Shown here in pieces: positions 15,985 to 46,899 of a stretch of DNA of 63,708 nucleotides. Made by a program: the position numbers and the translations under genes. The stretch's first letter is position 1. Every line of letters begins with the position of its first letter. The notes beneath the pieces were generated by a model, which did not search any database, was not told the DNA's origin, and saw nothing but the letters and a program-made list of their open reading frames with translations. Source of the stretch: a virus; the IMG/VR virus record IMGVR_UViG_3300034418_012563, positions 1 through 63,708 of that record. The stretch is one strand, 5' to 3'.

Positions 15985-16002
15985 CTTTAATTTTTTAGGC
16001 TA

Positions 16003-16025
16003 AAGGAGGGATTTTCTCCCTCCTT
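16003..16025 (-). terminator. GC-rich hairpin between the 815- and 2880-residue fiber genes
   Basis: A perfect 9-bp stem AAGGAGGGA/TCCCTCCTT with a 5-base loop, the most GC-rich element in this AT-rich gap. On the minus strand it is followed by only a short T run (TTTAGCC), so it is a weak intrinsic terminator. It lies 64 bases after the stop of the 815-residue fiber and 18 bases before the next ATG. It may instead be an RNA stability or translation-control element of the giant fiber message. Confidence 0.5.
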
Positions 16026-16035
16026 ATTTATTGGT

Positions 16036-16043
16036 TATTTATA
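16036..16043 (-). promoter_or_regulatory. TATAAATA box upstream of the 2880-residue fiber gene
   Basis: An exact TATAAATA on the minus strand, 51 bases before the ATG of the giant fiber gene at 15984. It lies upstream of the 16003-16025 hairpin, so a transcript from here would carry the hairpin in its leader. The local sequence TATTTATAAATA is palindromic, so the orientation is ambiguous. Confidence 0.35.
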
Positions 16044-16088
16044 AATATATTGAACCTCAGTTGTAACATATTTTTTTAACAAAAAAAA

Positions 16089-18536: not shown

Positions 18537-18581
18537 TTTTTTGTTTTTTTTGGTTTTAATTAATCCTTAATATAAAGGCTG

Positions 18582-19865
18582 TTATAGGATATTCACCCAA
18601 CCCAAAGACTTATACATATATAAACCTTCTAAATCTTCTGCCGAGGAATCCGTACAGTAAACCAATAAACCAGGTAATGGACTTGGTATACTTATTCTTT
18701 GTGCTTGAGTCATTCTTGGTATTAATAACCCTTGATTGGTACTTGCCAATTCTAAAATTGCACATACGGGAGATGTTGTTCCTGTACCTATGGAAACTCC
18801 CGAATCACCACTAAAAGTAAGGTGATTTCCGTCTTGGTCCACTACTCTTTCTGACTGTAGTGTACCGTCATTATTATAAATGTTGTTTGTGTCTTGGAAA
18901 TTATATATTCCTGAACCACTATATGTTAATACCTGACCAACATTCGCTGTTGATGTGTCAACATCATTAATCTCACTTAAATTAGGTGTGAAATCAGGTC
19001 TTACAAAGATTGAGCCGTTAGATGATGCTTTTAATACTATCGCGACTTTTGTTTTGATTGCGGGCTCGGCAGGTTGAACATTTGTTAATCCACCAGGTCT
19101 TGTTGGATCAGAATATAAAATATCACCATCTAACCACGTTTCACCATTTTGTCCTCTTGTATCAATATCTCTAACTTCACCAAATGCCGTTACCCATCCA
19201 TCTCCTCCGTTGGTGATGTCGTGAGTTGCAACACCTATAACATAATCCGCAGGAAATGACCCGTCAGTTATTGCGGAAGCAATTAATATTCTTCCTGAAT
19301 TACCTGTGGTACCTGATGCCATAACTACAACACCATTGTCTATCTGTTGTCCTGATTGATTTTTAACTCTAAACCAATTCTCTTGACCTACTTGTAATGA
19401 AGTGTCTGAATAGGCGTTATAAATAACTAATGTTTCATAATCAAGATCAAAATAAACTCTACCCTCTGAAGATGTAACACCTGTTGATTCAAAAGGTGTA
19501 AAATCAATATAATCAACATTTACACTACCACCCGTTAAGTGTAAGGTATTACCATCTAAGTTCGCAAATCTTTCAGATGTGAAACTTGCATCTGTGTTGT
19601 AAATATTGATTGTGTTTGCGGAAGTGAAAAATCCTGTAACATTGAAGGTCCCTCCCGTATTATTAGTAAATGTCGCAGTACCATTTGTATCATTATAAGT
19701 ACCACCTGTAACAAACGTATCAGGCAAGGAAGAAACTTCTCTATATTTCAACTCGCTACCATCAATTACAACAACTTGGTTTATGTTGTTATTGAGGTCA
19801 ACGGTAGAAATAAAAGTCTTTCCACTTACTGATAATCCGTTTCTTGCTACTAGTTCTCTTGACAT
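18582..19865 (-). CDS. Short modular tail fiber, 427 aa
   Basis: A 427-residue beta-rich protein. Its N-terminus (ELVARNGLSVSGKTF) is nearly the same as that of the upstream 784-residue fiber (ELVARNGLRVSGSTF), suggesting the same attachment module. Its C-terminus (LELASTNQGLLIPRMTQAQ, then EGLYMYKSLGWVNIL) matches that of the downstream 815-residue fiber. Between them are one FVTGGTYNDTNGTATF block and a less repetitive region (residues about 110-300: NWFRVKNQSGQQIDNGVV, GVATHDITNGGDGWV) that looks like a distinct domain and resembles a head-decoration-like fold of small beta barrels, a weak call. It is preceded by a hairpin at 19894-19923, so it may head its own transcript or depend on read-through. 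Confidence 0.85.
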   Translation of the reverse strand: MSRELVARNGLSVSGKTFISTVDLNNNINQVVVIDGSELKYREVSSLPDTFVTGGTYNDTNGTATFTNNTGGTFNVTGFFTSANTINIYNTDASFTSERFANLDGNTLHLTGGSVNVDYIDFTPFESTGVTSSEGRVYFDLDYETLVIYNAYSDTSLQVGQENWFRVKNQSGQQIDNGVVVMASGTTGNSGRILIASAITDGSFPADYVIGVATHDITNGGDGWVTAFGEVRDIDTRGQNGETWLDGDILYSDPTRPGGLTNVQPAEPAIKTKVAIVLKASSNGSIFVRPDFTPNLSEINDVDTSTANVGQVLTYSGSGIYNFQDTNNIYNNDGTLQSERVVDQDGNHLTFSGDSGVSIGTGTTSPVCAILELASTNQGLLIPRMTQAQRISIPSPLPGLLVYCTDSSAEDLEGLYMYKSLGWVNIL

Positions 19866-19893
19866 TTTTCTATGTTAAAAAATTTGGCTATAA

Positions 19894-19923
19894 ATATGGT
19901 GGAAGTAAACACTCCCACCATAT
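19894..19923 (-). terminator. Hairpin between the 784- and 427-residue fiber genes
   Basis: On the minus strand it reads ATATGGTGGGAGT, a short loop, and ACTTCCACCATAT, a stem of about 13 pairs with one mismatch, followed by TTTATAG. It lies 15 bases after the stop of the 784-residue fiber gene. The T run is weak, so partial termination or processing is likely rather than complete termination. Confidence 0.5.
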
Positions 19924-19937
19924 TTTTAACTATAATA

Positions 19938-22292
19938 TTAAGCATTTATCGCAACCGCTCTTGTATTAGCAATTATGGATAAACCAGCACCTCCACTAAA
20001 GGTAACATTACCACTCGCATCTGCCGCCAATTCAGGATTAGTTCCAAATGTTCCTAAATCCATAGTTGACCAATCTGCGTATTCTACTCCACTATTGTGG
20101 AAAATAGCAGTAAAGAAACCTGAACGTGCAGCAGTACCATCAGTCATTGTGTATTCTACATGAACTGCCTTATAATCAGATGGTGAAACATTAAATAATG
20201 TTCCTGAAGCACCTGACCCTGTTACACGAAGGGTTTGTTCAGATGAAATTTTAATATCACTATCATCATTTCTTGTAAGAGTTGCCGCAGAATATTCTAC
20301 AGTTGCACCCGTTACAAAAGTATCCGATCCTGAGAAACCTGTAATTGTAATATCAGATTCTAATCCACCATTAATACCTAAAGTAAGTGTTCCTGTTTGA
20401 CCAGGATTACCTGCATAAGTACCACCAGTAATAAATGGTAATTCAAATGGTGAAGTACTTAATGTACCTGTTCCTGAGAATGATACCGCCCAATCTGATG
20501 AGTATGAAATACCTGTGATTGCTTGAATAGTTGAATTAACTACCGCACCACCATTTTTAGTAACCGAGATTACGTTGTTCGCTTCAGTAACTCCTGTTAC
20601 GAAATCAGTACCTAATGATAATGTAGCATCATAACTGTTTGATCCCTCCCAAGTAATGTCACCTGTAGCCAAACTAAATGTTGCACCCGTAATTGCATCA
20701 ATTGCGATACTTCCAGTAGCACCATTAGAACCTACAAAAGACACATCATTGTTAGTCTGAGTTAAACCTGTTAAAGCCGTAACAGTACCTAATGAATCTG
20801 TATTCCCTAAATTAGTTTCTAAAGTAATTGCGTTATCTAAAAGTGTACCACCTGTTACAAATTCAAATGCACCTGTTAATGTTACAGGTCCGAAATCACC
20901 ATCAGTATATTCCAAAGTTACAGTACCTGCCGCTTGTGATAATGTACCACCAGTTACGTAAGTATCTGCACCTTCAAATCCTGAAATTACGATATCTGAT
21001 TCAACACCACCATTAATTGATAATGTTAAGTCACCTGTACCTTGATTATATGAACCACCAGTAATAAATGGTAATTCAAATGAAGGTGCTGCAACATTAA
21101 ATGAAGAACCTGAAATTCCCCAATCACTATAAGCCACTTCAGTAATCGCACTTACGTTAAGTGTTACATCAATTAAGTCAGAACCTGATAAAGTAATATC
21201 ATTATCTGAAATAGTTGCACCTGTAAATGCTTGAATGTTGTAGTCGGTTGTTCCTGCACCTGCGTTACCAACAGTAATAATGTTGTTCGCTTCAGTTACA
21301 CCTGTTACAAAGTCAGTACCTAAATCAATATTTGAAATATTGTTAGAACCTTCTACTGTAATAATACCTGTTGAAGGATCAAATGTACCACCAGTAACTG
21401 CATCAATCGCAATACTTCCAGTTGCACCGTTAGAACCTGCAAAAGATACATCATTATTAGTTTGAGTTAAACCTGTTAAAGCAGTAACTGTACCTAATGA
21501 ATCTGTATTACCTAAATTAGTTTCTAAAGTAATACCATTATCTGTTAATGTACCACCCGTCACAAATTCAAATGCACCTGTTAATGTTACAGGACCATAT
21601 CCTTGATTGAAAGTTAATTCTACTTCACCAGTAGATTGAGTTAACGTACCGCCTGTTACGTGAGTATCGGTATTTGTTAATCCTGTGATCTGAATTGCAC
21701 TTTCTAAACCATCTTTAATACCTAAACTGATTGTACCTGCATTGTAAGAACCACCAGTAATAAATGGTAATTCTAATGGTGATGTTGAGATTGCACCTGT
21801 ACCTGCATAAGAAACACCCCATACTCCACTATCTGCAGAATAATCAGTTAATCCTGTGATTGCGACTACTTGTAAGTTAGTATCTGCACCACCGTTGTCC
21901 GTCAACGTGATTTGATTAGATGAAATTGTTGCAGCAGAGAAGTAATCCCAACCGCCAACTTGAAATGTACCTCCACTGTTGTTTGTGAAAGTTATTTGTC
22001 CGGCAGCATCATCATAAGTGCCACCTGTTAAAAATACGTTACCATTGGTAACGGTAAATGTTCCTCCTGTTGTGTTTGTAAACAAGAGATCTTTGTCTCC
22101 AGTGCCCGTAACCGTTCCGCCACTTACGAACACCTGACTGTCAAGTCCGGCTGCCGCGAGAAGTTTTACTTCTCTAGTTGACGGGTCGATTGCTAATACA
22201 CTATTCAACAAATTTTGGTCTGTAGAAACTGTTTGTAGGAATGTCGATCCCGACACTCTCAAACCATTTCTTGCTACTAATTCATTTGCCAT
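19938..22292 (-). CDS. Modular beta-repeat tail fiber, 784 aa
   Basis: A 784-residue protein dominated by imperfect repeats: blocks of the form LPFITGGSYN...LTLGINGGLES, VTGGTLTQSTGEVELTF, GPVTLTGAFEFVTGGTL and DFVTGVTEANN recur three or four times. Two DNA blocks (around 20521-20640 and 21250-21330) are close copies of sequence in the 815-residue fiber gene, so the two genes share shaft segments by duplication or recombination. The N-terminus is the ELVARNGL module shared with the 427-residue fiber. The C-terminal 110 residues are different (AVHVEYTMTDGTAARSGFF, NPELAADASGNVTFSG) and resemble the end of the 466-residue protein next upstream (VAYDYVINDGTNYRSGEV). The shaft-plus-tip organisation is inferred. 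Confidence 0.85.
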   Translation of the reverse strand: MANELVARNGLRVSGSTFLQTVSTDQNLLNSVLAIDPSTREVKLLAAAGLDSQVFVSGGTVTGTGDKDLLFTNTTGGTFTVTNGNVFLTGGTYDDAAGQITFTNNSGGTFQVGGWDYFSAATISSNQITLTDNGGADTNLQVVAITGLTDYSADSGVWGVSYAGTGAISTSPLELPFITGGSYNAGTISLGIKDGLESAIQITGLTNTDTHVTGGTLTQSTGEVELTFNQGYGPVTLTGAFEFVTGGTLTDNGITLETNLGNTDSLGTVTALTGLTQTNNDVSFAGSNGATGSIAIDAVTGGTFDPSTGIITVEGSNNISNIDLGTDFVTGVTEANNIITVGNAGAGTTDYNIQAFTGATISDNDITLSGSDLIDVTLNVSAITEVAYSDWGISGSSFNVAAPSFELPFITGGSYNQGTGDLTLSINGGVESDIVISGFEGADTYVTGGTLSQAAGTVTLEYTDGDFGPVTLTGAFEFVTGGTLLDNAITLETNLGNTDSLGTVTALTGLTQTNNDVSFVGSNGATGSIAIDAITGATFSLATGDITWEGSNSYDATLSLGTDFVTGVTEANNVISVTKNGGAVVNSTIQAITGISYSSDWAVSFSGTGTLSTSPFELPFITGGTYAGNPGQTGTLTLGINGGLESDITITGFSGSDTFVTGATVEYSAATLTRNDDSDIKISSEQTLRVTGSGASGTLFNVSPSDYKAVHVEYTMTDGTAARSGFFTAIFHNSGVEYADWSTMDLGTFGTNPELAADASGNVTFSGGAGLSIIANTRAVAINA

Positions 22293-22319
22293 TTTTTTGT
22301 TTTTTTTAGCAGTTTATTT

Positions 22320-23720
22320 TTATAGCTGGTTCTTTCCTAATCTAACGTCCCATGAACCACTTGAGACGCTGGCTATTAATCTTGCATTTCCACCTGAAAT
22401 ATCAAATGTCCACTCAAATGCCGCGGTTGATCCAATATCTATTGTTGATACATCATTAAATTGAACTTGAGTTCCATCCCATACCGCATGAACTTCTCCT
22501 GATCTATAATTTGTACCATCATTAATAACATAATCATATGCAACCGATTGATATAAACTTAAACTCGTCACATCAACAACCGTATTATTGGTTACACCTG
22601 ATGCTTCCACATAATCAAAATGAGTTAAGATATCCAAACCAGTTACGGTTACTGAACTATCATCATCTTTATCTAATGTGATTTCACCGTCAGCGTATGT
22701 TCCACCTGTAATTGACGCAGAAAAACCTGTAACTTGGAAAGTCGTACCATCCGACATTCCTAATGTTAATGTCGTTGGTGAATAAGTCGCTCCCGTTAAA
22801 TAAGTGTCTTCACTTGTAAATCCAGTGATTACTACCGTTGAATCGTCTGATTTCGTAAGGGTTAAAGTATTTGCCGCAAAAGTACCACCCGTAACCGAAA
22901 TATCTGATGAAACAAAACCCGTAACAATAAGGTCCGTTTCAAGTCCACCAGCATAACTTAATGTTAATGTGCCAGCAGAATAACTGGAACCACTAATAAA
23001 CGGTAAGGTCACCGTATCTGATGACCCATCTGTATTGGCTAAATCTAAATCATAATCACCACCATATGTGATACCCGATATGGAAGTTGTTGTTGAACCT
23101 GTCGTGAAACCTGTAACAGTAAAAGTTCCACCTGTTGTGTTTGAGAAGGTAGCAACACCTGTTGCATTATTGTATGTACCACCTGTTACGGTAATATCTG
23201 TTCCGTAGAATATTTTCCAACGTGCATTATCTCTTGTTACTCCACTAACACCTTCAATTGATGAATCTAACCACGCATCAATAAATGCCGTACCACCCGC
23301 AGTAGTTGTTGATACAGTTGTACCATAAGTACCTTCAGTTGTTGATCCCGAAGCCGAATTCCATAAACTTTCAAAATTAGGTATCGTATATTGATATGTT
23401 TTTTGTGTTTCGTGAACATAAACCAACATACCAAGTCTTCTACGACCTGACGAAATATTATCGGAATTTAATGTTAAAATATCAGGTAAAAAAGCTAAAG
23501 TTCTTTTTGAATATTGAATGGGTATCGTATTTCCCGTAAATTCAATAACCCCCGTAGAACCACTCGGAACGGTATAAATAAGGTCTTGGAGAGTATATAC
23601 CTCCATATAACCCCCAATCTGTAACACGCTAAAATTAGTACCAAAGGTCTTATCCCTTAATACCGAATCAGGTGTACTAATATTTATAGATGATAAAGGG
23701 TTTTTATATACAAAAGACAT
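22320..23720 (-). CDS. Tail fiber or fiber-base protein, 466 aa
   Basis: A 466-residue protein. Residues 1-165 are non-repetitive, with beta-strand character and a conserved-looking N-terminus (MSFVYKNPLSSINISTPDS). The rest contains VTGGTYNNATGVATFSNTTG, LPFISGSSYSAGTLTL and VTGGTFAANTLTLTKSDDS units of the same family as the neighbouring fibers. The C-terminal 90 residues (SVAYDYVINDGTNYRSGEVH, NARLIASVSS) match the end of the 784-residue protein, so this tip module occurs twice in adjacent genes. No enzymatic motif is visible. It is separated from the TPT-repeat gene by 67 bases with no clear signal. It may be the proximal member of the fiber set because its N-terminus is unlike the others; that is inference. 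Confidence 0.82.
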   Translation of the reverse strand: MSFVYKNPLSSINISTPDSVLRDKTFGTNFSVLQIGGYMEVYTLQDLIYTVPSGSTGVIEFTGNTIPIQYSKRTLAFLPDILTLNSDNISSGRRRLGMLVYVHETQKTYQYTIPNFESLWNSASGSTTEGTYGTTVSTTTAGGTAFIDAWLDSSIEGVSGVTRDNARWKIFYGTDITVTGGTYNNATGVATFSNTTGGTFTVTGFTTGSTTTSISGITYGGDYDLDLANTDGSSDTVTLPFISGSSYSAGTLTLSYAGGLETDLIVTGFVSSDISVTGGTFAANTLTLTKSDDSTVVITGFTSEDTYLTGATYSPTTLTLGMSDGTTFQVTGFSASITGGTYADGEITLDKDDDSSVTVTGLDILTHFDYVEASGVTNNTVVDVTSLSLYQSVAYDYVINDGTNYRSGEVHAVWDGTQVQFNDVSTIDIGSTAAFEWTFDISGGNARLIASVSSGSWDVRLGKNQL

Positions 23721-23787
23721 TCTCTACTATTTTCTTTAACATAAATACATATCAAAAACTATATGTACGTTTTTTTTTGGTTATTTT

Positions 23788-26229
23788 TTATGACACTGTG
23801 TTTCCTTTAAAATACAATGTGTTTGTTGTGTTATCCAATCTTACTCCCTGATCAGTAAATGTAGTATATAATCTATATGTTCCAGGAGCAAATGAACCAC
23901 CTGGATTATTTACACTATAAGTATATACTGATGATGCCATACTCGCAGTAACAAAAGTGTTCGGTCCGTTTCCATTAGAAAAATCTATACTAACTTGTCG
24001 GTTTCCACCGCCACCAATACCTTCATCGGGAATTACCCAAGTATACCAAGCATTACCCGGTACAGTACCACCTGATACTTCAGTTGTAACAAAATTGTAC
24101 TGTACTATCGCATTACCTTCACTGTCATTACCACCAGTACTTTGAGGTATTGTTTGAGTGATAATCACAGGTACACTTCCTGTTCCTGCATTTAGACTAT
24201 AATAATCTAAATAATGACCAATATCTGTGTTTGATGTTGGTGCCAATCCATTAGTAAATCCATAGAAACCAGCACCTTGTCCTGCCATATATGTACCAAT
24301 ATCACCCGCAATTGTATCAGGTTCAATTAATAGATAGGCAGTTGTTGGTGTTCCCGCAGAAGTACTAGTCGGAGTAGGTGTTGTTGCTGGAACTGTTTCC
24401 GTTGGAGTCGCAGTCACAGTTAAGGTCGGTGTACTCGTTGGTGTACTTGTAATTGTTGGCGTGTTAGTTGGCGTGCTAGTTACTGTTTGTGTTGGCGTAT
24501 TACTTACCGTTTGTGTTGGAGTAGCTGTTACCGTAGGAGTACTAGTCACCGTCTGAGTTGGAGTCGCAGTTATTGTTGTTGTCGGCGTGCTCGTTACTGT
24601 CGGTGTATTAGTCGGAGTACTACTTACCGTTTGTGTTGGTGTCGCTGTTACCGTTGAGGTTGGTGTCGCCGTTACCGTAGGAGTACTAGTAACTGTCTGA
24701 GTTGGTGTTGATGTTACCGTTGGTGTATTAGTTACCGTTTGAGTCGGAGTTGCGGTTATCGTAGGCGTATTAGTTACTGTTTGAGTTGGCGTGCTCGTTA
24801 CTGTCGGCGTATTAGTTGGAGTACTAGTCACCGTCTGTGTCGGTGTTGCTGTTACTGTAGAAGTTGGTGTCGCAGTTACCGTAGGTGTACTAGTCACTGT
24901 TTGTGTAGGTGTAGTCGTTACTGTCGGCGTATTAGTTACCGTTTGTGTTGGTGTTGCAGTTACAGTTGGTGTATTTGTAGGCGTATTACTTACCGTTTGT
25001 GTTGGTGTCGCTGTTACTGTAGAAGTTGGTGTACTTGTAATTGTTGGCGTGTTAGTTACCGTCTGAGTTGGAGTACTAGTTACAGTCGGGGTATTAGTTG
25101 GAGTATTACTTACCGTCTGTGTAGGTGTTGCGGTTATTGTTGGTGTATTAGTCACAGTTTGAGTAGGTGTACTCGTTACTGTAGGTGTACTAGTTGGAGT
25201 ATTACTTACCGTTTGTGTCGGCGTTGAAGTTATTGTCGGTGTATTAGTTGGAGTACTACTTACCGTCTGTGTTGGTGTCGCAGTTACCGTAGGTGTATTA
25301 GTTACCGTTTGAGTCGGAGTCGCAGTTACAGTTGGAGTATTGGTCAAAGTTTGTGTTGGTGTCGCTGTTACTGTCGGTGTATTTGTTACCGTCTGAGTTG
25401 GAGTATTACTTGGTGTATTAGTTACAGTTTGAGTAGGTGTGGCAGTCACCGTTGGTGTATTAGTTGGCGTACTACTCACTGTTTGTGTTGGTGTACTAGT
25501 AATTGTTTGTGTCGGAGTATTAGTCACCGCTGGTGTTTCACTTGGCGTAGGTGTGTTCGTTAGCGTTTGTGTTGGTGTACTGGTAACTGTAGGTGTATTA
25601 GTTACTGTTTGAGTCGGAGTACTAGTTACTGTCGGTGTATTAGTTACTGTTTGAGTCGGAGTACTAGTCACTGTTGGTGTGTTAGTAACCGTTTGTGTTG
25701 GAGTTGAAGTCACCGCAGGTGTTTCACTTGGCGTAGGTGTGTTCGTTAACGTTTGTGTTGGTGTACTACTCGCTGTTGGTGTATTTGTAACTGTCTGCGT
25801 TGGAGTTAACGTTAGTGTCGGTGTCGGAGTATTAGTTACACCCGCAGTTTCAGTAGGTGTTGGAGTTGCCGTGGCAGGTGCAGTACTTGTTAATGTTAAT
25901 GTTACCGTTGGAGTATTGGTTGGTGTAGGAGTTGGTGTTTGCGTAAATCCAGTTAATGTAACCGTAGGTGTAGGAGTTGGTGTGACATCTTCAACAACAA
26001 CTATTTTCTTGGAAACCGTTTCATCATTACAACCAGGTTGTTTGTTAACTACAAAAATCGTATATTGAATTCCCGAGGGTGATCCAGGTAAATCTAAAAC
26101 TACCCCCGCAACTATCTGATCACGGGTTATACCCGTTTCAATAGGTGTTGTGGAGGTTGAACCTGTATATATATTAAAAGGGCCTACAGCGTTTGAACTG
26201 AGAGTTAACCTAATTATTACCTGCGACAT
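23788..26229 (-). CDS. Thr/Pro repeat (TPT) stalk protein, 813 aa
   Basis: Three parts are visible. Residues 1-80 form an N-terminal beta-rich domain ([12 protein letters not shown], with FVVNKQPGC). Residues about 82-625 are a low-complexity stalk of repeats near [14 protein letters not shown], about 14 residues each, containing only Thr, Pro, Val, Gln, Asn, Ser, Ala and Ile. Residues about 630-813 are globular and beta-rich ([42 protein letters not shown]). Thr/Pro stalks are usually rigid and extended and can be O-glycosylated in Bacteroidota, so the protein probably holds a binding domain away from the baseplate. Glycosylation is only a possibility. The gene lies between the SprB-repeat protein and the 466-residue fiber, with 66-76 base gaps on each side. 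Confidence 0.85.
24345..25985 (-). repeat. TPT coding repeats
   Basis: Roughly 42-base degenerate repeats encoding [14 protein letters not shown]-like units, about 1.6 kb. The third codon positions vary freely between copies, so the protein repeat is under selection or the duplications are old. Confidence 0.93.
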
Positions 26230-26305: not shown

Positions 26306-28858
26306 TTAACTTAAACAATCTATGTCATAGTCAATTGATAATGTTAATTTAAAATAGGCGTCTCTTAATGGGTCTTCATCCCCATTACAGTCAGAAAATA
26401 TTTGTAAAGTATTTGTGTTCAAATTCAGTCTAAAACTTTCAATTTCAGATATGGTGTTCAATATATCTCTAATCGCATTTCTATATTGACTATCTGTTGG
26501 AACATCATTTAGAGTTGTTCCTGTATAAAAACTTTCGGTTATATTATAACTGATACCGTCACCAGTTAACACCACATTAACAGAAAATTCAGCAGTGTTT
26601 AATGTACAACCTGTACTTCCGCTAATTAAATCCATATAAGATTCATTTAGCATTTCGGATAAACCTCGTTTTTGTTTGGATGTGGTTACAAAACCTGATT
26701 CACAAATTTCAAATATTTCATAACATGCAACGTTATTTGGTTTGCATATAATTGAAACTGCCTTTGTTTTTGAACAACCGTTTGCATCGGTTAAGGTTAC
26801 GGTGTATGTTCCACCTGATAATCCTGTAATGGTGGATCCTGTTTGTCCGTTATTCCATAAATAAGTGAAAGGTGGTTCCCCGTCATAGATTGATACCGTT
26901 GCGGATCCGTCAATACCCAACGTACAATCAACCCCCGTCAATATAAAATCAATCTCTGGCGTTCCACTTATTGAAAAACTTGTTGTTGACGTGCAACCAT
27001 TATTATCTTCAACAGATAAACTATAACTTCCCTCAGATAATTCATTATTGGTAAATGCGCTTGAGAAGTTGTTTAAGCTTTGTTCAATTATGGTACCTGA
27101 GGTGGTATCTGTTAAAGAATAAATTAAAGGAAATGCAACTGCGGTAACTCCTGATGTTACCGTGGCGGTAAAGATTCCATTTGTTCCACCACAAGTAGCA
27201 CCCGTTGTTGAAATGGATACGTTAAATGGATCTTGATTGGCAATTACAATGGTCTGATTATATTCACAACCCTCATTAGATATTACTTTTAAGTAATACG
27301 TATCACCCGATAAATTATCAAAGGTGTGTGAGGATGACTGAGTTGTAATGGTGGTCACAGATCCACTGGTTCCACCTGTAAGGGTATATGTTAATATGGT
27401 ACCTGATGGTGAATTGATATTCACTTCAATAGAACCGTTATTGCCACAAGTGGAATTATTCACATTTACTGAATCTATTGTAAATGCACCATCTGAAAGA
27501 ATTGCAACTGATTCTGTTATTTGGCAATATCCGTTATCAAAAACCTGAACTGTATATACAGTAGGACAAAGTCCTGTTAGTGTTATTGATGTGGAATTGG
27601 TTGTTACCGTATATCCGTTGGAAACAGAATAATAATATGGTGCAGATCCACCTGAGATATTCATTGTAAACGAACCATCACAATCAAAGCAAGATGCGGT
27701 TATTGTGTTAAAATTCAATAACCCCAAAGAACTAACTGTTGGAATGGTGGCGGTTTTGTTGGTTTGGCAACCGTTGCTGTCTGTCACCACCACGCTCACA
27801 TTACCTGCGGTTAAACCTGTTGCGGTGGAAGTGGTTTGTCCGTTTGACCATAAGTAAGTATAAGGTCCAACACCTGTTTGACCTGTCACCGTTGCAATAC
27901 CTAAATTGGGAACACATTGTGAGTCACCCGTGATTGCAAAACCGAAATCTAATGCGTCACTTTCATCAATAACAACGGTCTCAGTAAATGCGGTTCCACC
28001 GGCATAATCTTCAACATAAACGTGGTAAAAACCATAATCCAAATTGGAAAAAACGTATGATGAATTATTTGTGGTAACAACATTTATTGCACTTCCGTTT
28101 TTATATAATGTTAAATCATAAGGTGCAGATCCTGATGCAACAAACACTTCCAATTCACCTGTTGTTGGATCACCACAAGTTGTTCCTGAAACATTATTTA
28201 TGGATGCACATATGCAACCTGTAACCTCAACGTTAATATAAAAATCACTATTGATATTACCTGTGGTATCATTTAATCTAAAAACATATGTTCCACCAGT
28301 AAGACCTGAATATGTAAAAGGTCCGTTGCCCGTTTGTGCACTTAAACTACCAGGTATTGTATTTTGTAAAGTATAAGGCGGAACACCATCTGCCGGTGTT
28401 ATAACAATTGTACCTCCACTTGGATTTTCACAAACACCCGTAACGGCAAAAGAATAATTTAAAGGACCCTGATAACACGTTGGAACACAATTGTTTGGTG
28501 ATACCGTAATACCAAAATAAGGTTCCGTGGTATCCACACAAAACGTCTGACCACTTCCAACACCCGTTCTTTCAATACCACAACAATCCGTGAAACTCCA
28601 AGCACCACTTAATGTCGTTGCAGAATAACAATCATCCAATAATCCTTGTGATTGCAAACAGTTTGTACAATTTGTATGTGAGGGTACCAAAAATGTTTGA
28701 ACGCTCGTACCACCTGTAATTACACCTGTATATTCATAACAAATACCGCTATATATAACGGTATTTCCAACCGAGAAATTCGCATCTTCAATTGTGAAGA
28801 TTTGATCCCCTGGGTTTGGAGTACTACATCCTGAAAATACATAAGTGTTTAATGCCAT
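26306..28858 (-). CDS. SprB-type repeat adhesin / tail fiber, 850 aa
   Basis: An 850-residue protein with about seven tandem Ig-like repeats between residues about 140 and 700. The best copies read PYTYLWSNGQTTSTATGL then VVVTDSNGC, and PFTYLWNNGQTGSTITGL then YTVTLTDANGC. This is the signature of the SprB repeat family, named after the flavobacterial gliding-motility adhesin. Each repeat starts near a Cys and ends in NGC. The N-terminal 130 residues are Cys-rich (TNCTNCLQSQGL), and the last 95 residues (FYTGTTLNDVPTDSQYRNA) resemble the C-terminus of the upstream 982-residue protein. No signal peptide is present, so it is a virion protein rather than an exported adhesin. It begins two bases after the stop of the upstream gene. 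Binding or mimicry of host surface proteins is inferred. Confidence 0.87.
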   Translation of the reverse strand: MALNTYVFSGCSTPNPGDQIFTIEDANFSVGNTVIYSGICYEYTGVITGGTSVQTFLVPSHTNCTNCLQSQGLLDDCYSATTLSGAWSFTDCCGIERTGVGSGQTFCVDTTEPYFGITVSPNNCVPTCYQGPLNYSFAVTGVCENPSGGTIVITPADGVPPYTLQNTIPGSLSAQTGNGPFTYSGLTGGTYVFRLNDTTGNINSDFYINVEVTGCICASINNVSGTTCGDPTTGELEVFVASGSAPYDLTLYKNGSAINVVTTNNSSYVFSNLDYGFYHVYVEDYAGGTAFTETVVIDESDALDFGFAITGDSQCVPNLGIATVTGQTGVGPYTYLWSNGQTTSTATGLTAGNVSVVVTDSNGCQTNKTATIPTVSSLGLLNFNTITASCFDCDGSFTMNISGGSAPYYYSVSNGYTVTTNSTSITLTGLCPTVYTVQVFDNGYCQITESVAILSDGAFTIDSVNVNNSTCGNNGSIEVNINSPSGTILTYTLTGGTSGSVTTITTQSSSHTFDNLSGDTYYLKVISNEGCEYNQTIVIANQDPFNVSISTTGATCGGTNGIFTATVTSGVTAVAFPLIYSLTDTTSGTIIEQSLNNFSSAFTNNELSEGSYSLSVEDNNGCTSTTSFSISGTPEIDFILTGVDCTLGIDGSATVSIYDGEPPFTYLWNNGQTGSTITGLSGGTYTVTLTDANGCSKTKAVSIICKPNNVACYEIFEICESGFVTTSKQKRGLSEMLNESYMDLISGSTGCTLNTAEFSVNVVLTGDGISYNITESFYTGTTLNDVPTDSQYRNAIRDILNTISEIESFRLNLNTNTLQIFSDCNGDEDPLRDAYFKLTLSIDYDIDCLS

Positions 28859-28860
28859 TT

Positions 28861-31809
28861 TTAACAGGTTAAGCTAACATTTATTCCGATATTAACGGTG
28901 AGAATACTTTCTCTAAAATTATCCAAACAAGTTGAATTTGAAACAACCAAATTATTACCACTTCTATAATAATTCAATCCTGATTGATATAAAGAGTCCA
29001 AATACGTATCCAACGCATTATACCAATCTGTTTGTGTCGGATAATCATAAATACCGTATCCTGTATAAAATTTCTGTTGAACCAGTATTACATTATCCAA
29101 TCTCACATCCACATACCACTCTGAAAAAACTGAATTTAAATCACAATTGGAAATTGTAAATCCTGAACTACCCGCACACGATTTTAATGCTGTCGCCAAT
29201 TTTGCCCCAAACTCATTAACCTCCACATCACAATTTAATGTTTGATCAATGCAATCATAACCGAACAATTGTCCGTTATATTCGCAAGGAATACACGGAA
29301 TTGGAATAATTTCACAACCACGTTGTCTTCTCCAAGCAAACTTTTGGCGATTTAATACGTTATTTTCCATTTTCTGACCACCCAACCAAATTGTGGTGGC
29401 AGGTATCACCTGTTCAACCAATCTCATCCAATAAGGTCCCAAACCTAATGTAAAATCAATCATCTTTTGGTACGTATATTGATTGGAAGGAATATTAACC
29501 GTTTGTTGTGATTGAAGGTATTTCCAATAAATGGATTGCAATGCAGGATAACCACCGTTTTTTCCATCTGTGATCCATTGGCGGTTCCTAACATTAATCA
29601 TATTGTTATAAAAGGTCTGCGCAAACTCAAAAAACGTTTTTTCTTGCGGTCTCGGATTAATAACCGTCCAATCAACCCCCTTCGGCGATGGATATGGTGC
29701 AGTTAAACCTGTTGAAGGGAACGGATAATCATATTTGTTGGACATCGTCCAAATATCATACAAAATACCCTGACCCATATTCAAATATAAATCAATGTTC
29801 TTTCTGTTTAAAACCAACCTCTCATCTTCCACATAATAATATGCATTGTAACCCCCCGTTCTTGATCTTCTCAAACCCGTCTGATTATCAACCCAACTCT
29901 TTTTATTATCATAAATGCGAGTAAGACCGAAACCTAATGGATTAAGGAAGGGGAAATTTCTATACCTATCAAAATATTTCTCACCATAAGTGAACGGTTC
30001 AAATTCCGTTTGAACATTTGGATTCTGACCCGTAAATACTGAATTCTGATCATCAGTGATTAATGGTGAACGGTGATCAGGTGTTAACTCAAACCAACCC
30101 GCACCCTTTTGAAAGAAATAACTGTTGTTAACCACCGGTTTTTTTGGATAACCTTGCGCATCCATCGGAATATCCGCTTGAGTAATGGTAACCGATGAAA
30201 AACTGGTGGATGTGGTAAATCCTGTATATTGAACCCCCTGTAACAGATACACATTATTCGGATCCAAAATGGGGGTCTCAATGGCTTTTGTTCCACCTGA
30301 TATGGTGGACCATTCGTAATTGTATCTATTTAAGTTAATCGGACCATCCGCCATATAAATGGTCTCGTTAAACTCAATTAAGGCTTTTGGTGCACCAGCC
30401 ATTCTCAATAAAAACTCAACGGATCTTCTGGTACCTTTTGATTTGAAAAGATATGCCGCATTTAAAATTAAATTTCTATAAAACTGAAAGTTAATTTCAT
30501 CAGGTGTTTTTGATACCGTTTGACCAGGATAAACCGACGGTGTCCCCTGACCAAATACAGAATTTAAAAAGGCATCGTTTGTGATCGGTGAAACATTTGT
30601 ATTGTAACCTAATGTTGCCGCCAAATTCTTCAATAATTGTGAAGGAATATCATTCTTCACATTATAATTAACTGAATTCATATATGCCAACGTATCAACA
30701 AACTTTTTAAGTTCATCAAACGCTCTACCATAAATTCTTAATATTTTTGTAACCCTTTGATCTTCGGTGTCAAATTCTTTGAATGCCCCCGTGGTTAAAA
30801 ATCTAACAATTAAATCGGTTTTGAAATCATCCAAATTTTCTCCGATCTCTTGCAAACTTTCAATATAAATGTTAAAACGATTTGTTCTAATATCCAAGTT
30901 CCATAACCCATCAGTTGGCCAAGTAACACTCTTATCAATCTTATATAACTTTCCACTATCAGATTCTTCTATAATCTGAAATTTGGAAGTATATTTTGGA
31001 ACCACCATTCTATTAAGCAAGAATTTTTCCAACTCATCAAAGTTATTGGAAAATGCTTTTTCTGTATTTAATGAATTTGGTTTAACAACCAAAGGCAATG
31101 TTGTTGAGTTATTCCCTGAAAAGGGGTTACCTGCAACTGTAATGGTTACCGTCCCCGCAGATAAACGAACCGAAGGTATAAAATCAATAATCGGATATTC
31201 TGTATTAACATTTGAAACATATAAAGAATATTTTTCAAATTCTCTCGTTAAATTTCTGATCGGAGCAACCTCCATCGGTCTAACCGACAAATTCCTATCA
31301 GAATTTTGTGAATAATCAATATCAAAAGGATTTTTAAAACGAGTAACATCCAAATCAAAAGTGGTGGTGTTATCTATTGAATCAAAACTGATATTGGTCG
31401 CAGTGTTCGCTGTTGTAAAATCATAATAAACCGAATCAATCTGAATTGCCGCAGGAAAATAATTAATAATCTTAGTAACAGATACCTCAAATCTTTTTAC
31501 CAATGAACCATACATATTATAGTTCATAACTTGCGTCACATCAAAGTTTGGATAAACACCCAAATTCTTTGCCGCAATCTCACGAGATTCAAAATCAGAC
31601 GTAACATCCAAATCATCCAAAGAAATTGGACCAGAAAACGCACCCAAATTAAAGGTTCTATTTACCTTCTCAACCACAGAAGTTGAAAACTCAAAGTTAC
31701 CCTGAGTTAATCCCCCTCCGTCAACAACTTGGAACCCAACCAAATTATCAGAAAAAGTATCTTGTCCGTTTGCAGGTGCTGGTGGATATCTGAATTTATT
31801 ACTCGCCAT
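28861..31809 (-). CDS. Large baseplate/tail protein with P2-I-like segment, 982 aa
   Basis: A 982-residue structural protein. Around residues 443-475 the sequence LNAAYLFKSKGTRRSVEFLL matches the signature of phage tail protein I (P2 gpI) families, in which an 'LYKxKGT' helix is followed by a hydrophobic helix. Residues 325-420 are helical and look like a structural linker (VRFLTTGAFKEFDTEDQRV). A conserved-looking segment near residue 810 reads LVEQVIPATTIWLGGQKMEN. The C-terminal 170 residues are Cys-rich (CEIIPIPCIPCEYNGQLFGY) and end in a domain shared with the next gene's product. Its position between baseplate wedge genes and fibers suggests it anchors fibers to the baseplate. Length greatly exceeds P2 gpI (about 180 residues), so only a local match is claimed. 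Confidence 0.8.
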   Translation of the reverse strand: MASNKFRYPPAPANGQDTFSDNLVGFQVVDGGGLTQGNFEFSTSVVEKVNRTFNLGAFSGPISLDDLDVTSDFESREIAAKNLGVYPNFDVTQVMNYNMYGSLVKRFEVSVTKIINYFPAAIQIDSVYYDFTTANTATNISFDSIDNTTTFDLDVTRFKNPFDIDYSQNSDRNLSVRPMEVAPIRNLTREFEKYSLYVSNVNTEYPIIDFIPSVRLSAGTVTITVAGNPFSGNNSTTLPLVVKPNSLNTEKAFSNNFDELEKFLLNRMVVPKYTSKFQIIEESDSGKLYKIDKSVTWPTDGLWNLDIRTNRFNIYIESLQEIGENLDDFKTDLIVRFLTTGAFKEFDTEDQRVTKILRIYGRAFDELKKFVDTLAYMNSVNYNVKNDIPSQLLKNLAATLGYNTNVSPITNDAFLNSVFGQGTPSVYPGQTVSKTPDEINFQFYRNLILNAAYLFKSKGTRRSVEFLLRMAGAPKALIEFNETIYMADGPINLNRYNYEWSTISGGTKAIETPILDPNNVYLLQGVQYTGFTTSTSFSSVTITQADIPMDAQGYPKKPVVNNSYFFQKGAGWFELTPDHRSPLITDDQNSVFTGQNPNVQTEFEPFTYGEKYFDRYRNFPFLNPLGFGLTRIYDNKKSWVDNQTGLRRSRTGGYNAYYYVEDERLVLNRKNIDLYLNMGQGILYDIWTMSNKYDYPFPSTGLTAPYPSPKGVDWTVINPRPQEKTFFEFAQTFYNNMINVRNRQWITDGKNGGYPALQSIYWKYLQSQQTVNIPSNQYTYQKMIDFTLGLGPYWMRLVEQVIPATTIWLGGQKMENNVLNRQKFAWRRQRGCEIIPIPCIPCEYNGQLFGYDCIDQTLNCDVEVNEFGAKLATALKSCAGSSGFTISNCDLNSVFSEWYVDVRLDNVILVQQKFYTGYGIYDYPTQTDWYNALDTYLDSLYQSGLNYYRSGNNLVVSNSTCLDNFRESILTVNIGINVSLTC

Positions 31810-31813
31810 ATTC

Positions 31814-32722
31814 TTAATCTATAATGTTTGTAAAATTCTTACTGAAATCTATATTACTTCCACGATCCTGTCTGACCTCATATAATAAGTTGTTAAACTG
31901 ATCCCTAATCTCAAATAAATTATATTGTTTATAAATATTGGCATCAGAATCATAAAGTGTATAAATTCCATCTTCAATACTTTTGGTCTGATCACCATAT
32001 AATGCAATCGCCAACGTATCAATATCGTGTTCCGCCATCTCAATCTCCACCGTGATCGGATTGAAATACGTGTTGGTGATAATGATATTTTGATTCGGCT
32101 GACCAATATAAGGGGTCGCGTTTGGATTATTGGAAGGAGCACTTGCCGGTGACACCGTACAAAAAATTAAATCTGTTGCACCTTGAACATACCTATAACG
32201 AATCGCTTTTTGTTGTGAATTGGTTAAATTTGTAACCACTGGTTCACAGAAAAATGATGAGGTGATAATTCTATAAAAATTTGGTATCTTTGTTCCGTTG
32301 TTATTCAAATATTCAACTCTATAACCTACCAAACCCTGAGATATAAAACGGTTACGGAACTTCGCAGGAACATTATTCAAATCAATAACAATACCTTTTA
32401 CGTTTGGTAATGCAGATAAAACCCCACAATCTGTAATCGTGGTACGAATCTCCGCAGGACGAATATACAAAGTATATATCCCCAACTGATTGAATTCATC
32501 TGCTGGTAATTTCAAATTATATAATCCACCCAAAATTTCCACATTCGCATTTCCACCCGTATTGGCATTATGAAAATATGGCGTCAATATATTTGAAGCA
32601 TTTAATTTTTTTAATACAAACTGATTTGTAACGTCCCTTGAAGGTGTATAATTCAAAATTATATCCACATCTTCTGGTGACATATCTGCCGGTCTAACCG
32701 TTCCGTAAGTTCCTAAACTCAT
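31814..32722 (-). CDS. Unknown structural protein, 302 aa
   Basis: I do not recognise this 302-residue protein. It begins MSLGTYGTVRPADMSPEDVD and appears to be mixed alpha/beta, with a proline-rich loop near residues 190-205 and a C-terminal region rich in Asp and Asn ending FSKNFTNIID. It has no signal peptide, membrane segment or enzyme motif. The spacing of 2-4 bases to both neighbours and its place inside the baseplate cluster imply a stoichiometric baseplate or fiber-connector role. The N-terminal phrase SPEDVDIILNYTPSRDV could be a docking segment; this is speculative. Confidence 0.75.
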   Translation of the reverse strand: MSLGTYGTVRPADMSPEDVDIILNYTPSRDVTNQFVLKKLNASNILTPYFHNANTGGNANVEILGGLYNLKLPADEFNQLGIYTLYIRPAEIRTTITDCGVLSALPNVKGIVIDLNNVPAKFRNRFISQGLVGYRVEYLNNNGTKIPNFYRIITSSFFCEPVVTNLTNSQQKAIRYRYVQGATDLIFCTVSPASAPSNNPNATPYIGQPNQNIIITNTYFNPITVEIEMAEHDIDTLAIALYGDQTKSIEDGIYTLYDSDANIYKQYNLFEIRDQFNNLLYEVRQDRGSNIDFSKNFTNIID

Positions 32723-41430: not shown

Positions 41431-43269
41431 TCAACTGAAATCTACGTTAGTTAGATTTTTAATTCTTACTTTGATATCTTTTTGTGGGAATCTAATCTGA
41501 TAAATCTGACTTGGTTCGGCAAAAATAGTATCATCAATCAATTGAATTTGTTTTGTGGTAGAATCTGAATATCTTTGTGATGTCTCAGATGATGAATACT
41601 GACCCCCAACTTTATTGAATATTTTTAGATCTGATAATGTAACAACACCAGGAATATCTTGTACTATTCTTCTGATATCAGAAACATTCACATTTTTACC
41701 TAAATTATTATTAACAGGTGTCATATATGAATCAATAGAATTAACTATATTTGTAATCACATTACCCTGACTTTGTGTTGATTCAACAACAACAGATACT
41801 TCAAACTCCAAATCAATAACTTGTGCTGTGGTTACTTCAATATAATCATTTATCATTCTGTAATTAGATAAATAATTTGCAATATTTTGTTTTAATGTGT
41901 TTGAAACCAAACTTGTTAATTTACCTGTGCTATCATAAGATAATGTCTCAATTTTTATCTTATTATCATCTTCAATTATTGAAACTTTTGCTGGTGATCC
42001 AAACTTTCCTGGCATAGTTCTTAATAAAGAATTATAATCATTAATGGTTACCGCTCTTTTTTGTGCCGCAAAGTTAAAACTGACCATATTTCTGATCTCC
42101 TCAATTGTTGGTATATCTGCCCCACCAATAGCTGCGGTCACATTGTTACATCTCAAACTATTAATTACGTTTTGATTAACTATATTTGAAGGACCGTTTA
42201 CCGAAAAATATGTATTACCAAATGAAGTTAATGTGTTAACACCAATATTTGTTGCAACACCACCACCAATTCTATATTGAACAAATAATGTGGTATTTGG
42301 TCTTACTGTTAATCCTAATCCAATATTATTTTGATATTGTTCCAATCTTAAAGGAACTCCCGTTCTTGCAAATTGAGCCAATTGTTCGTCAGGTGTTGTT
42401 GTTCCACCACCAAAAGTTAACTTGCAAAAACCTTGTGGTGTAAATTCTGAAACAAAACGATTTTCTGTTTCCAAATATCTCCCAACTTTAATCCCTGGTT
42501 GGTCTGAAGCCTTTGTTGGATCTTCAATAAAAACTCTGTCTTCTGCTAAAGCATCAACCTCATACCATTTGTTTGGTGAATTTATAAATTCATCATACGT
42601 TGGAGGTGTTTGATAATTCGTTCCACTTTTTTCAATAACCGAAGTAATACTTAACACATTCGGCTCAGGCAAAAAGAACTCAAAAAATGGTTTTACATTT
42701 GAAGGATTAATAACCCTTTTAAACGTTTTTGTAATACCGTTAACCACCACTTCTCTTTTTGTAATGGTGTAACTAACCAAAATGTTATTATTGTCAAATA
42801 CAGGAACTTTGGTACGGTTTGGAAAACCATCGTTATTGTATTGTGATGAAAAATCAATATCATATATATTCTCAAATACTTGACCGGCACCGATGAATTG
42901 TGATCCCGCTCTCAATATTCCAAGATATCTAGTATCTTCTGAATCTCCGTTAGCAGGAACGGTAATACTCACATCCACAATCGCAATTGAGGGTCTGTTA
43001 CCAGGTATTTTTAAACCATAAGTTCTCGCAATGTTAAAAATAGAGGTTTTTTGTTGGGCATATTGTAGGACTGTTTCTTGAATACTACGGTCCATATGGT
43101 AATGTAAATTATCACCAATCGCAGCGTTTAAGTCCAAAAACACAGAATAAACAGACGCATCATTAAAATTATCAATAAGTTCTGGATAATACTGTCTTGT
43201 GTAGTTTATTAACTCTGTTCTTAATGATTCAAAATCTCTGTTTACGTATGATATTTTTCTATTTGCCAT
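41431..43269 (-). CDS. Baseplate wedge protein, gp6/gpJ-like
   Basis: A 612-residue protein with the N-terminal pattern of T4 gp6 and related gpJ-type baseplate wedges: SYVNRDFESLRTELINYTRQ, then NDASVYSVFLDLNAAIGDNL and HYHMDRSIQETVLQYAQQ. The middle holds a beta domain (KLTFGGGTTTPDEQLAQFAR, then GLTVRPNTTLFVQYRIGGG), and residues about 385-425 (IEEIRNMVSFNFAAQKRAVT, then NDYNSLLRTMPGKFG) match the typical gpJ core in which a V-T-x-x-D-Y motif precedes the catalytic-free alpha/beta domain. The C-terminus contains VNVSDIRRIVQDIPGVVTL, also usual. In the T4 baseplate gp6 forms the inner ring that joins wedges. It follows the gp25 homologue after five bases, the order seen in many contractile phages. 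Confidence 0.92.
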   Translation of the reverse strand: MANRKISYVNRDFESLRTELINYTRQYYPELIDNFNDASVYSVFLDLNAAIGDNLHYHMDRSIQETVLQYAQQKTSIFNIARTYGLKIPGNRPSIAIVDVSITVPANGDSEDTRYLGILRAGSQFIGAGQVFENIYDIDFSSQYNNDGFPNRTKVPVFDNNNILVSYTITKREVVVNGITKTFKRVINPSNVKPFFEFFLPEPNVLSITSVIEKSGTNYQTPPTYDEFINSPNKWYEVDALAEDRVFIEDPTKASDQPGIKVGRYLETENRFVSEFTPQGFCKLTFGGGTTTPDEQLAQFARTGVPLRLEQYQNNIGLGLTVRPNTTLFVQYRIGGGVATNIGVNTLTSFGNTYFSVNGPSNIVNQNVINSLRCNNVTAAIGGADIPTIEEIRNMVSFNFAAQKRAVTINDYNSLLRTMPGKFGSPAKVSIIEDDNKIKIETLSYDSTGKLTSLVSNTLKQNIANYLSNYRMINDYIEVTTAQVIDLEFEVSVVVESTQSQGNVITNIVNSIDSYMTPVNNNLGKNVNVSDIRRIVQDIPGVVTLSDLKIFNKVGGQYSSSETSQRYSDSTTKQIQLIDDTIFAEPSQIYQIRFPQKDIKVRIKNLTNVDFS

Positions 43270-43274
43270 TACTG

Positions 43275-43760
43275 TTAAATATTAATTATAATGAAATCTT
43301 TTGATTCAAAAGCGGTATCTTTAAAACTATAATCTATTCTTAGTTTTGCTGTGTATTCTTCTGTACCTCTTCCTGCAACACGAAAAACCTGACCCCCCAA
43401 CTTTTCATAGTTTAATTCACCTTTGGCTTCATCATCTTCCAAATAAGGTTTTATAGATATTTCATTTATTTGAAGATTTGGTATGTATTTATCAACCGCA
43501 TCTCTGATATCTGCCTTTATAGATTCAAAAGTTATTGTGTCTAACTGTTCAAAAATGAATTCATAAATTCTAGTACCAAAATCAGGAAGATAATATCTTG
43601 ATCCTTTTCTTGTTAAAATTAAATGCAATAGATCAGTCCTTATTTCTTCATCCGTTGTTTGAGATAAAGAAAGGTACTTACCTTGATCACTTTCACGAAA
43701 AGGAAAGTTTATTCCATATGTTTTTCCTAGTGCCATTTTAACATAAATATAATCGGACAT
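43275..43760 (-). CDS. Baseplate wedge protein, gp25/GPW-like
   Basis: A 161-residue protein of the GPW/gp25 family. Diagnostic features are the GINFPF segment near residue 16, the helix-loop DLLHLILTRKGSRYYLPDFG (residues about 43-62), the FIFEQLD helix and the DAVDKYIPNLQINEISI strand. Family members are 100-160 residues long and sit at the inner baseplate, contacting gp6 and the sheath initiation site. It is the first gene after the terminator that follows nrdA, so a promoter is expected in the roughly 20-base upstream interval; only the AT-rich sequence TTATTTATATAAAATT is visible there. Five bases separate it from the gp6-like gene. Confidence 0.93.
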   Translation of the reverse strand: MSDYIYVKMALGKTYGINFPFRESDQGKYLSLSQTTDEEIRTDLLHLILTRKGSRYYLPDFGTRIYEFIFEQLDTITFESIKADIRDAVDKYIPNLQINEISIKPYLEDDEAKGELNYEKLGGQVFRVAGRGTEEYTAKLRIDYSFKDTAFESKDFIIINI

Positions 43761-45597: not shown

Positions 45598-45618
45598 TTT
45601 TACTTTTTTTAATTGTTT

Positions 45619-46899
45619 TTAAAATAAATCGTTTGACGTAATAGACTTTGTCTTCTTACTATAATTAATACTTCTTTTATTGAAGAAGTCTGTATGTTTT
45701 GTGGTTAAAATTTCATCATCAAACCACTCGGTAGTTTCTAATATTGTTTCATTAACATCAAAAATACTATCAATACCTATTGAATTTAATGATATATTAA
45801 ATCTATGTTTAATAAATTCCATAGTTTGTGATTTAGTTAAAAAATCCAAATCCCCTTTCTCAAAAATCCAATCCACAATTTCTTTTTCTGCTTCATATGC
45901 CTCCATAGTGGCAGAAACTAAATCTTCAACTAATTGATCAGTCCACCAGTTTGGATTTTCAGATTTAATCGTGTTAACCAAATCAAAACCAAATTCCGCA
46001 TGAATGTTCTCTTCTTTTGATGTCGCTTCAACAGCATTTGAAATACCTTTTAACATATTTTTATGCTTATTAAAAGACATTATAACCAAGAATTGAGAGA
46101 ATAACGATACATTCTCAACAAACATTGAAAATAATACTACAGACTCAAAGTAATCACGGTTCTCAACCGCTTTTGAATTGGTAATTGATTTTTCCAAATA
46201 CTTGATTCTTCTTCTAATTGACGGAACTTCCAATAAGTTTTCAAATTCTTTGTTTAACCCTAACAATTGAATCAGGTGAGAATATGCATCTGCATGTCTA
46301 ACTTCAGATTCCGCAAATGTTGCACCAACATTACCAATTTCAGGTTTTGGCATTCTCTTATAAATGTCACCCCAAAATGTTTTAACTGCAACTTCAATCT
46401 GAGAAATAGCCAACATCGCTCTTTCAACCGCAGATCTTTCTTTTTCGTTCAAATGAACTTTAAAATCTTGAATGTCTGAAGTGAAATTAAATTCAGTATG
46501 AACCCAGTATGAGTGACGAATAGCATCCACATATTCGTTCAAATTTGGATATTCAAAAGGTTTTAAGTTTACTCTTTTTGAAAAGATATTTGGTCGGTTT
46601 TTTGCCCGATAAATGATATATTCTTTTGCAACATCATTTAATCCATTATCCATCAATTTGTTTTCCACCATATCGTGAATTTCATCCACGTGTGGTACGT
46701 GATCTTTATTGTTTCTGAAAATTGCTTTGGTTGAAATTCTTGCAATTTTTTCGGCCATTTCGTCGTCAACTGTTCCGACGCTATTCATCGCTTTTAAAAC
46801 CGCCATTTCAATTTTTTCACTTTCAAATAATACTTTGTCTCCGTTTCTTTTTATTACGTAACGAAGATCCTTATTTACATTGTCTACTAAACTTTCCAT
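45619..46899 (-). CDS. nrdB: Ribonucleotide reductase small subunit with N-terminal ATP-cone
   Basis: A 426-residue class I beta subunit. Residues about 12-100 form an ATP-cone (YVIKRNGDKVLFESEKI, then VDEIHDMVENKLMDNG and YIIYRAK), which senses ATP/dATP. The ferritin-like domain follows, with metal ligands inferred as E169, E199, H202, E262, E297 and H300 and a tyrosine (Y206) four residues after H202, where E. coli Y122 sits. ATP-cones normally sit on NrdA; a cone on NrdB with a cone-less NrdA is the arrangement described for Leeuwenhoekiella blandensis and other Bacteroidota. The C-terminus (KKTKSITSNDLF) is probably the peptide that docks on NrdA. nrdB precedes nrdA in the transcript, the reverse of the order in E. 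coli. Confidence 0.95.
   Translation of the reverse strand: MESLVDNVNKDLRYVIKRNGDKVLFESEKIEMAVLKAMNSVGTVDDEMAEKIARISTKAIFRNNKDHVPHVDEIHDMVENKLMDNGLNDVAKEYIIYRAKNRPNIFSKRVNLKPFEYPNLNEYVDAIRHSYWVHTEFNFTSDIQDFKVHLNEKERSAVERAMLAISQIEVAVKTFWGDIYKRMPKPEIGNVGATFAESEVRHADAYSHLIQLLGLNKEFENLLEVPSIRRRIKYLEKSITNSKAVENRDYFESVVLFSMFVENVSLFSQFLVIMSFNKHKNMLKGISNAVEATSKEENIHAEFGFDLVNTIKSENPNWWTDQLVEDLVSATMEAYEAEKEIVDWIFEKGDLDFLTKSQTMEFIKHRFNISLNSIGIDSIFDVNETILETTEWFDDEILTTKHTDFFNKRSINYSKKTKSITSNDLF

Follow-up and report, generated by a model that had tools for sequence, protein, structure and literature searches.

The locus analysed here raises the question of why a virus should encode, in the block of its tail genes, a protein composed of repeats resembling those of the gliding adhesin SprB, and what such a protein may do there. 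The window, i.e. the whole stretch of DNA under study, covers 63,708 nucleotides of the IMG/VR virus record IMGVR_UViG_3300034418_012563. The gene in question occupies positions 26306..28858 of the minus strand, begins with ATG and encodes 850 amino acid residues; it is supported as an open reading frame, by the Pfam family SprB and by its retention in IMG/VR relatives. Its start lies 2 bp past the stop of the neighbouring gene (28861..31809, also on the minus strand) that encodes a protein of 982 residues.

Domain composition of the SprB-repeat protein

The AlphaFold2 model of the 850-residue protein, for which 84 sequences served as input, has a mean pLDDT of 83, mostly 85–97 in the repeats, and exhibits, in agreement with the aligned relatives, seven consecutive Ig-like β-sandwiches at residues 133–706; the "about seven" tandem repeats counted in an earlier note, made from the sequence alone, are thus seven. 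All the segments lie on the minus strand. Repeat 1 (residues 133–215; 28214..28462) is defined by the alignment, the AlphaFold2 strands and position-specific orthology, the latter two being also the basis for repeats 5 (residues 458–542; 27233..27487) and 6 (residues 543–632; 26963..27232). The remaining four, i.e. repeats 2 (residues 216–300; 27959..28213, by orthology and AlphaFold2 as well), 3 (residues 301–378; 27725..27958), 4 (residues 379–457; 27488..27724) and 7 (residues 633–706; 26741..26962), each contain one of the four stretches matched by the SprB profile, at nucleotides 28103-28186, 27833-27901, 27614-27694 and 26840-26932, respectively; singly, only the two in repeats 4 and 7 exceed the cut-off. 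The repeats are preceded by a variable N-terminal extension (residues 1–132; 28463..28858), delimited by the homologue alignment and pLDDT, of which residues 1–73 are disordered or unmodelled in the window copy (pLDDT below 50), whereas residues ~74–132 form a cysteine-rich β-module with the motif FTDCCG (pLDDT 67–92 over residues 71–120). They are followed by a C-terminal domain (residues 707–850; 26309..26740) of the order αββαβββ.

Concerning the family assignment, the profile search with Pfam SprB (PF13573) gave an E-value of 2.2e-11 and 43.7 bits, the cut-off being 28, and no Pfam family matched the protein at E ≤ 1 once its sequence was shuffled or reversed; a chance match due to low complexity was rejected as the source of the score. 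The signature PYTYLWSNGQ...VTDSNGC, on which the earlier note had based its assignment, is present in repeat 3 (residues 332–364) and, as PFTYLWNNGQ...LTDANGC, in repeat 7 (residues 663–695), but the other five repeats are divergent. In its tandem Ig-like repeats of ~75–90 residues, the conserved cysteine pair and the pattern GG.[PY]YTYLWSNG...G.Y.VTVTD.NGC, the protein resembles the family as a whole. The cysteine pair is found in 506 of 588 phage repeats and in 1492 of 1565 bacterial ones; by position, 84 homologues have it in all of repeats 3–6, 76 of the 84 in repeat 7 and about half in repeats 1 and 2. A search of NCBIfam with the protein gave no match, the Pfam scan at E ≤ 1 contained no BACON domain (PF13004), and the protein, without a tail-fibre match among the PHROGs, resembled neither gpH nor the known families of fibres in sequence.

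The protein differs from the gliding adhesin SprB and its T9SS-exported kin in having neither a signal peptide nor a T9SS signal, in the constant seven copies and in its link to phage tail genes. The lack of a signal peptide, already claimed in the earlier note, is reflected in the N-terminus, where the highest 12-residue hydropathy is 1.03 versus 2.5–2.7 in the controls, two secreted SprB-repeat proteins; at the C-terminus, no match to CHU_C or Por_Secre_tail was found.

Kinship with Bacteroidota adhesins and the age of the array

The best 80 matches listed from 84,980 bacterial and archaeal genomes belong to records of Bacteroidota, except for one titled only "bacterium". Repeat 3 is 57% identical to a repeat from Saprospira and repeat 7 is 55% identical to one from Lewinella, while the closest solved structure both by sequence (E 1.7e-7) and by fold (Foldseek E 3.8e-21) is the grappling hook GhpA from Aureispira (9flp and others), which is a bacterial surface protein of 5,898 residues and not a viral one; the TM-scores against it are low because multidomain chains bend. 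The best non-phage relatives of this genuine SprB-family protein are thus from Bacteroidota and not generic Ig-like proteins from elsewhere; neither of the two outcomes that the earlier note had named as speaking against it was observed. In a combined tree of phage and bacterial repeats (83 columns), 10 of 311 branches are starred, and the tree lends support neither to a single group of phage repeats nor to one direction of transfer. Judging from these comparisons, the phage repeats share ancestry with the T9SS-exported surface adhesins of Bacteroidota.

Scans of IMG/VR, using as queries the SprB-repeat protein, its alignment and, separately, the 982-residue neighbour, retrieved more than 160 loci on contigs of up to 297 kb. 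Each of the 140 homologues in which the core is complete possesses a single seven-repeat core followed by the C-terminal domain, with no repeat gained or lost; three seeming exceptions to the rule of one core go back to one insignificant extra match. Homologues of the clade are 31–46% identical to the window protein. In 84 homologues sharing less than 90% identity, the best match of every repeat (588 of 588) is the repeat at the same position in another phage and never one at another position or in its own protein. This holds for the repeats of the window, too, though its nearest relative is only ~46% identical. It should be pointed out that the repeats were cut according to the alignment, which favours equal boundaries; the margins are nonetheless large, the median being 118–132 bits for the positional orthologue against 34–50 bits for the remaining repeats of the protein concerned. 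Bacterial adhesins, with 6–41 repeats per fetched locus, behave differently, 647 of their 1565 repeats having the best match within their own locus.

The positional matches argue for an old and fixed architecture of the phage array rather than a recent capture or an expanding tract, and a large phage clade has long possessed the seven-repeat core, fixed and passed on vertically. That the window phage recently captured a piece of a host adhesin in a single event, as the likeness to Bacteroidota adhesin repeats might suggest, is barely credible: the same core recurs across the clade at the low identities given above, and the closeness of each repeat to its positional orthologue contradicts it. 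The proposal of the earlier note that the phage had taken its shaft from host adhesins is, therefore, upheld as regards the kinship with Bacteroidota adhesins and not as regards a particular capture; the repeats would have been acquired, in either direction, before the clade radiated.

Among proteins already deposited, the top match in a library of viral structures (E 1.8e-55) is UniProt A0A6J5LD72 from an uncultured Caudovirales phage, with 714 residues and 30% identity, which very probably belongs to the same phage family; it already bears the name "SprB repeat" there, albeit as an automatic label only. A tblastn search of phage GenBank records with the SprB-repeat protein found only LR756502, where the match is a secreted protein of the T9SS type and not of the virion type. 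A literature search, with most subscription papers outside its coverage, found no paper describing a phage SprB-repeat family.

The tail gene block and the shared C-terminal domain

The position directly after a baseplate-type gene, pointed out in the earlier note, was borne out in the relatives. In 63 of 64 decidable loci the SprB core is the next gene after the homologue of the 982-residue protein, the gap ranging from −12 to +32 bp and being mostly 0, while in the remaining locus one gene lies between the two. The sample comprised 80 loci, of which 13 that break off too soon and three that stop within a long, incomplete open reading frame downstream were left out; since the loci were fetched with the neighbour and not with the SprB-repeat protein as query, the count is a fair test of the linkage. 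The block also contains a conserved 302-residue protein (31814..32722, minus strand; 69–77% identical in relatives), and upstream the window has two baseplate wedge proteins, likewise on the minus strand, one of the gpJ/gp6 type (41431..43269; phrog_219, E 4.4e-21; among the nearest named relatives, baseplate wedge of Flavobacterium phage immuto, E 6e-55) and one of the gpW/gp25 type (43275..43760; phrog_261, E 8.2e-18).

The 982-residue protein itself has a weak gpI-like core at about residues 443–482, containing the motif KGTRxxxE...G, and Tail_P2_I is its most frequent family, matched weakly by 18 of 40 homologues (best E 0.029). A profile of eight gpI proteins aligned with it by hhalign at E 2.6e-4 and a probability of 42 over 41 columns only, with a score of 33.2 compared with a shuffled maximum of 16.4, and its AlphaFold2 model (pLDDT 67) found no significant match in the PDB; the similarity is suggestive of a gpI-like protein but not a proof. 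If the gpI call is right, the gene order W-J-...-I-SprB, with other genes between the gpJ and gpI homologues, places the SprB-repeat protein in the slot of the tail fibre gene H of phage P2, with which it would share the position directly after a gpI-like gene and from which it differs in having no sequence similarity to gpH and in the extra genes between the gpJ and gpI homologues.

Both neighbours end in the same domain. Residues 707–850 of the SprB-repeat protein and the C-terminal domain of the 982-residue protein align by hhalign with a probability of 95.3 and E 2.2e-8 over 136 columns (score 54.5, the shuffled maximum being 30.8), and two separate AlphaFold2 models exhibit the same order of helix-strand-strand-helix-strand-strand-strand. 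Since the domain is common to the two proteins, it is likely to be a docking or assembly module. No convincing solved relative of the isolated domain was found; a hit to cellulases (E 0.04 over 50 residues) was taken as chance.

The gene context suggests a location in the virion. That the protein might decorate the neck or head in the manner of Hoc or a whisker, instead of the baseplate, is rather unlikely: single repeats weakly match a Hoc-like head decoration family, and there are weak matches to a solved neck-whisker protein and to decoration proteins, but such matches reflect the Ig fold, and the gene keeps its place beside a tail gene whose product has a domain in common with the SprB-repeat protein. 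It is most improbable that the protein is displayed outside the virion on the infected host cell, for superinfection exclusion or aggregation. SprB-repeat proteins that have a signal peptide and the CHU_C T9SS signal are indeed encoded in related or jumbo phage records; the window protein, however, has neither, and with its gene in the baseplate and tail block and its domain shared with the tail neighbour, a host-surface protein was rejected.

Other fibre candidates follow the SprB gene at 7342-26229. Directly downstream is a T/P-rich protein of 813 residues (23788..26229, minus strand), consisting mostly of a 10-residue repeat with globular ends; related modules occupy this place in relatives, whose SprB homologues also contain similar T/P-rich linkers within their extensions. 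Four neighbouring proteins at 16089-23720 (minus strand) have VTGGT-type repeats and mosaic segments in common, with identities reaching 64%, which suggests that these fibre genes have recombined with one another. An extremely long presumptive fibre of 2880 residues (7342-15984, minus strand) consists mostly of collagen-like GTSGSSG repeats and matches Pfam Collagen as well as many tail-fibre PHROGs. Adjacent 540-residue paralogues at 3905-5527 and 5529-7151 (minus strand) are 55% identical and match no PHROG, and a protein cut by the contig end (2-3868, minus strand) bears TVGGGxxNxASGxCS repeats like the head repeats of trimeric (YadA-like) autotransporters, a similar protein coming after the SprB gene in the related locus L006. 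Farther away, ribonucleotide reductase is encoded at 43891-46899 (minus strand), with a large subunit of only 568 residues and a 426-residue small subunit starting with an ATP-cone-like stretch, which may, we assume, correspond to the ATP cone borne by NrdB in some Bacteroidota.

Variable ends, host and the proposed baseplate arm

Unlike the core, the ends of the protein change. The N-terminal extension is absent in 37 of the 84 homologues, has ~60 residues in 30 and more than 100 in 17, the longest reaching 1,358 residues in this set and ~1,440 in a truncated homologue, and a C-terminal extension is present in 34 of 83; on the tree, four changes are needed for the former and 12 for the latter. 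The extensions include a VWA domain in homologue L098 and leucine-rich repeats in L145. The cysteine-rich module FTDCCG...FCVDT...C just before repeat 1 (28463-28640, minus strand, with equivalents in L097, L098 and L111) belongs to one half of the clade and matches no Pfam family, and GD...CY modules akin to it recur in the long N-terminal extensions. No receptor-binding domain was identified in the window protein.

A constant core with changing ends is what would be expected if the protein were an arm whose binding modules can be exchanged. We consider it probable that the protein is a baseplate-attached arm of Ig-like repeats in the slot of the P2 gpH fibre, carrying swappable adhesion modules, in contractile-tailed phages of Bacteroidota. 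The seven SprB-type repeats would form an arm of constant length at the baseplate periphery, where the protein would sit beside the gpI-like protein, docked on it by the C-terminal domain. The free ends—in relatives cysteine-rich, VWA, LRR or T/P-rich pieces—may bind the cell during adsorption, the arm setting their distance; with extensions at both ends, either of them may point outwards.

It is unlikely that the repeats themselves bind the host by interlocking with SprB-like filaments or other T9SS-exported adhesins, the phage holding a moving adhesin during gliding. The 55–57% identity of repeats 3 and 7 to Saprospira and Lewinella adhesin repeats would suit such contacts, the hosts plausibly glide, and a role of gliding adhesins as phage receptors has been proposed for Bacteroidota (PMC13288928); on the other hand, no homotypic SprB–SprB interaction was found documented in the literature consulted, the constant number and slow position-specific change fit structure better than an arms-race contact, and the fast-changing parts are the ends. 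A wider version, in which the adhesin-type repeats of the virion are the counterpart of SprB-type adhesins exported by the host T9SS, with adsorption through adhesin–adhesin contacts on the moving gliding machinery, would also cover the SprB-repeat T9SS proteins encoded by some relatives, yet it seems quite improbable.

As for the host of the phage with the proposed baseplate arm, a Shine-Dalgarno core is absent upstream of 25 of the 27 window genes, as is usual in Bacteroidota. Together with the baseplate relatives in Flavobacterium phages and the T9SS cargo genes of related records, this indicates a Bacteroidota host, likely one bearing a T9SS, and the clade probably comprises large uncultured phages of gliding-type Bacteroidota. 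A search of bacterial genomes with the 982-residue neighbour found no relative and hence no provirus or binned host.

The CHU_C signal occurs above the cut-off on proteins of three related records (292, 281 and 162 kb), one of these proteins, of 819 residues, combining weak SprB repeats with an N-terminus that resembles a signal peptide. Proteins with export features of the T9SS (CHU_C domain, N-terminus of the signal-peptide type), several of them with SprB repeats, were noted in related or huge phage records at L253:1256-3715 (292-kb record G004), L254:386-1672 (281-kb record G006), G008:C1:12006-12236, L007:5044-7497 and L012:10684-15696, the last being from the 642-kb LR756502, in which CHU_C is matched three times and Por_Secre_tail once. 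The presence of T9SS sorting domains in phage genes was noted earlier for Cryophage (PMC7468147), and phage-encoded T9SS cargo merits a separate study.

Tail proteins with tandem arrays of Ig-like domains are already known from phages of Bacteroidota, crAss-like phages carrying BACON tandem repeats in a tail-associated protein (PMC6949934). There, too, a stable array belongs to a family typical of host surface proteins; the differences are the other domain family, the eight copies, the reported duplication or horizontal origin (PMC6949934), and that no C-terminal domain shared with a gpI-like neighbour has been described. A repeat that is a common component of surface adhesins in Bacteroidota is thus also a constant part of the tail gene block in widespread uncultured phages of jumbo size, for which the gpI-like gene and the seven-repeat core form a marker gene pair. 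The same repeat, constant in number in phages while expanding and shrinking in bacterial adhesins, offers a natural comparison, and the variable ends are the place to seek determinants of host range.
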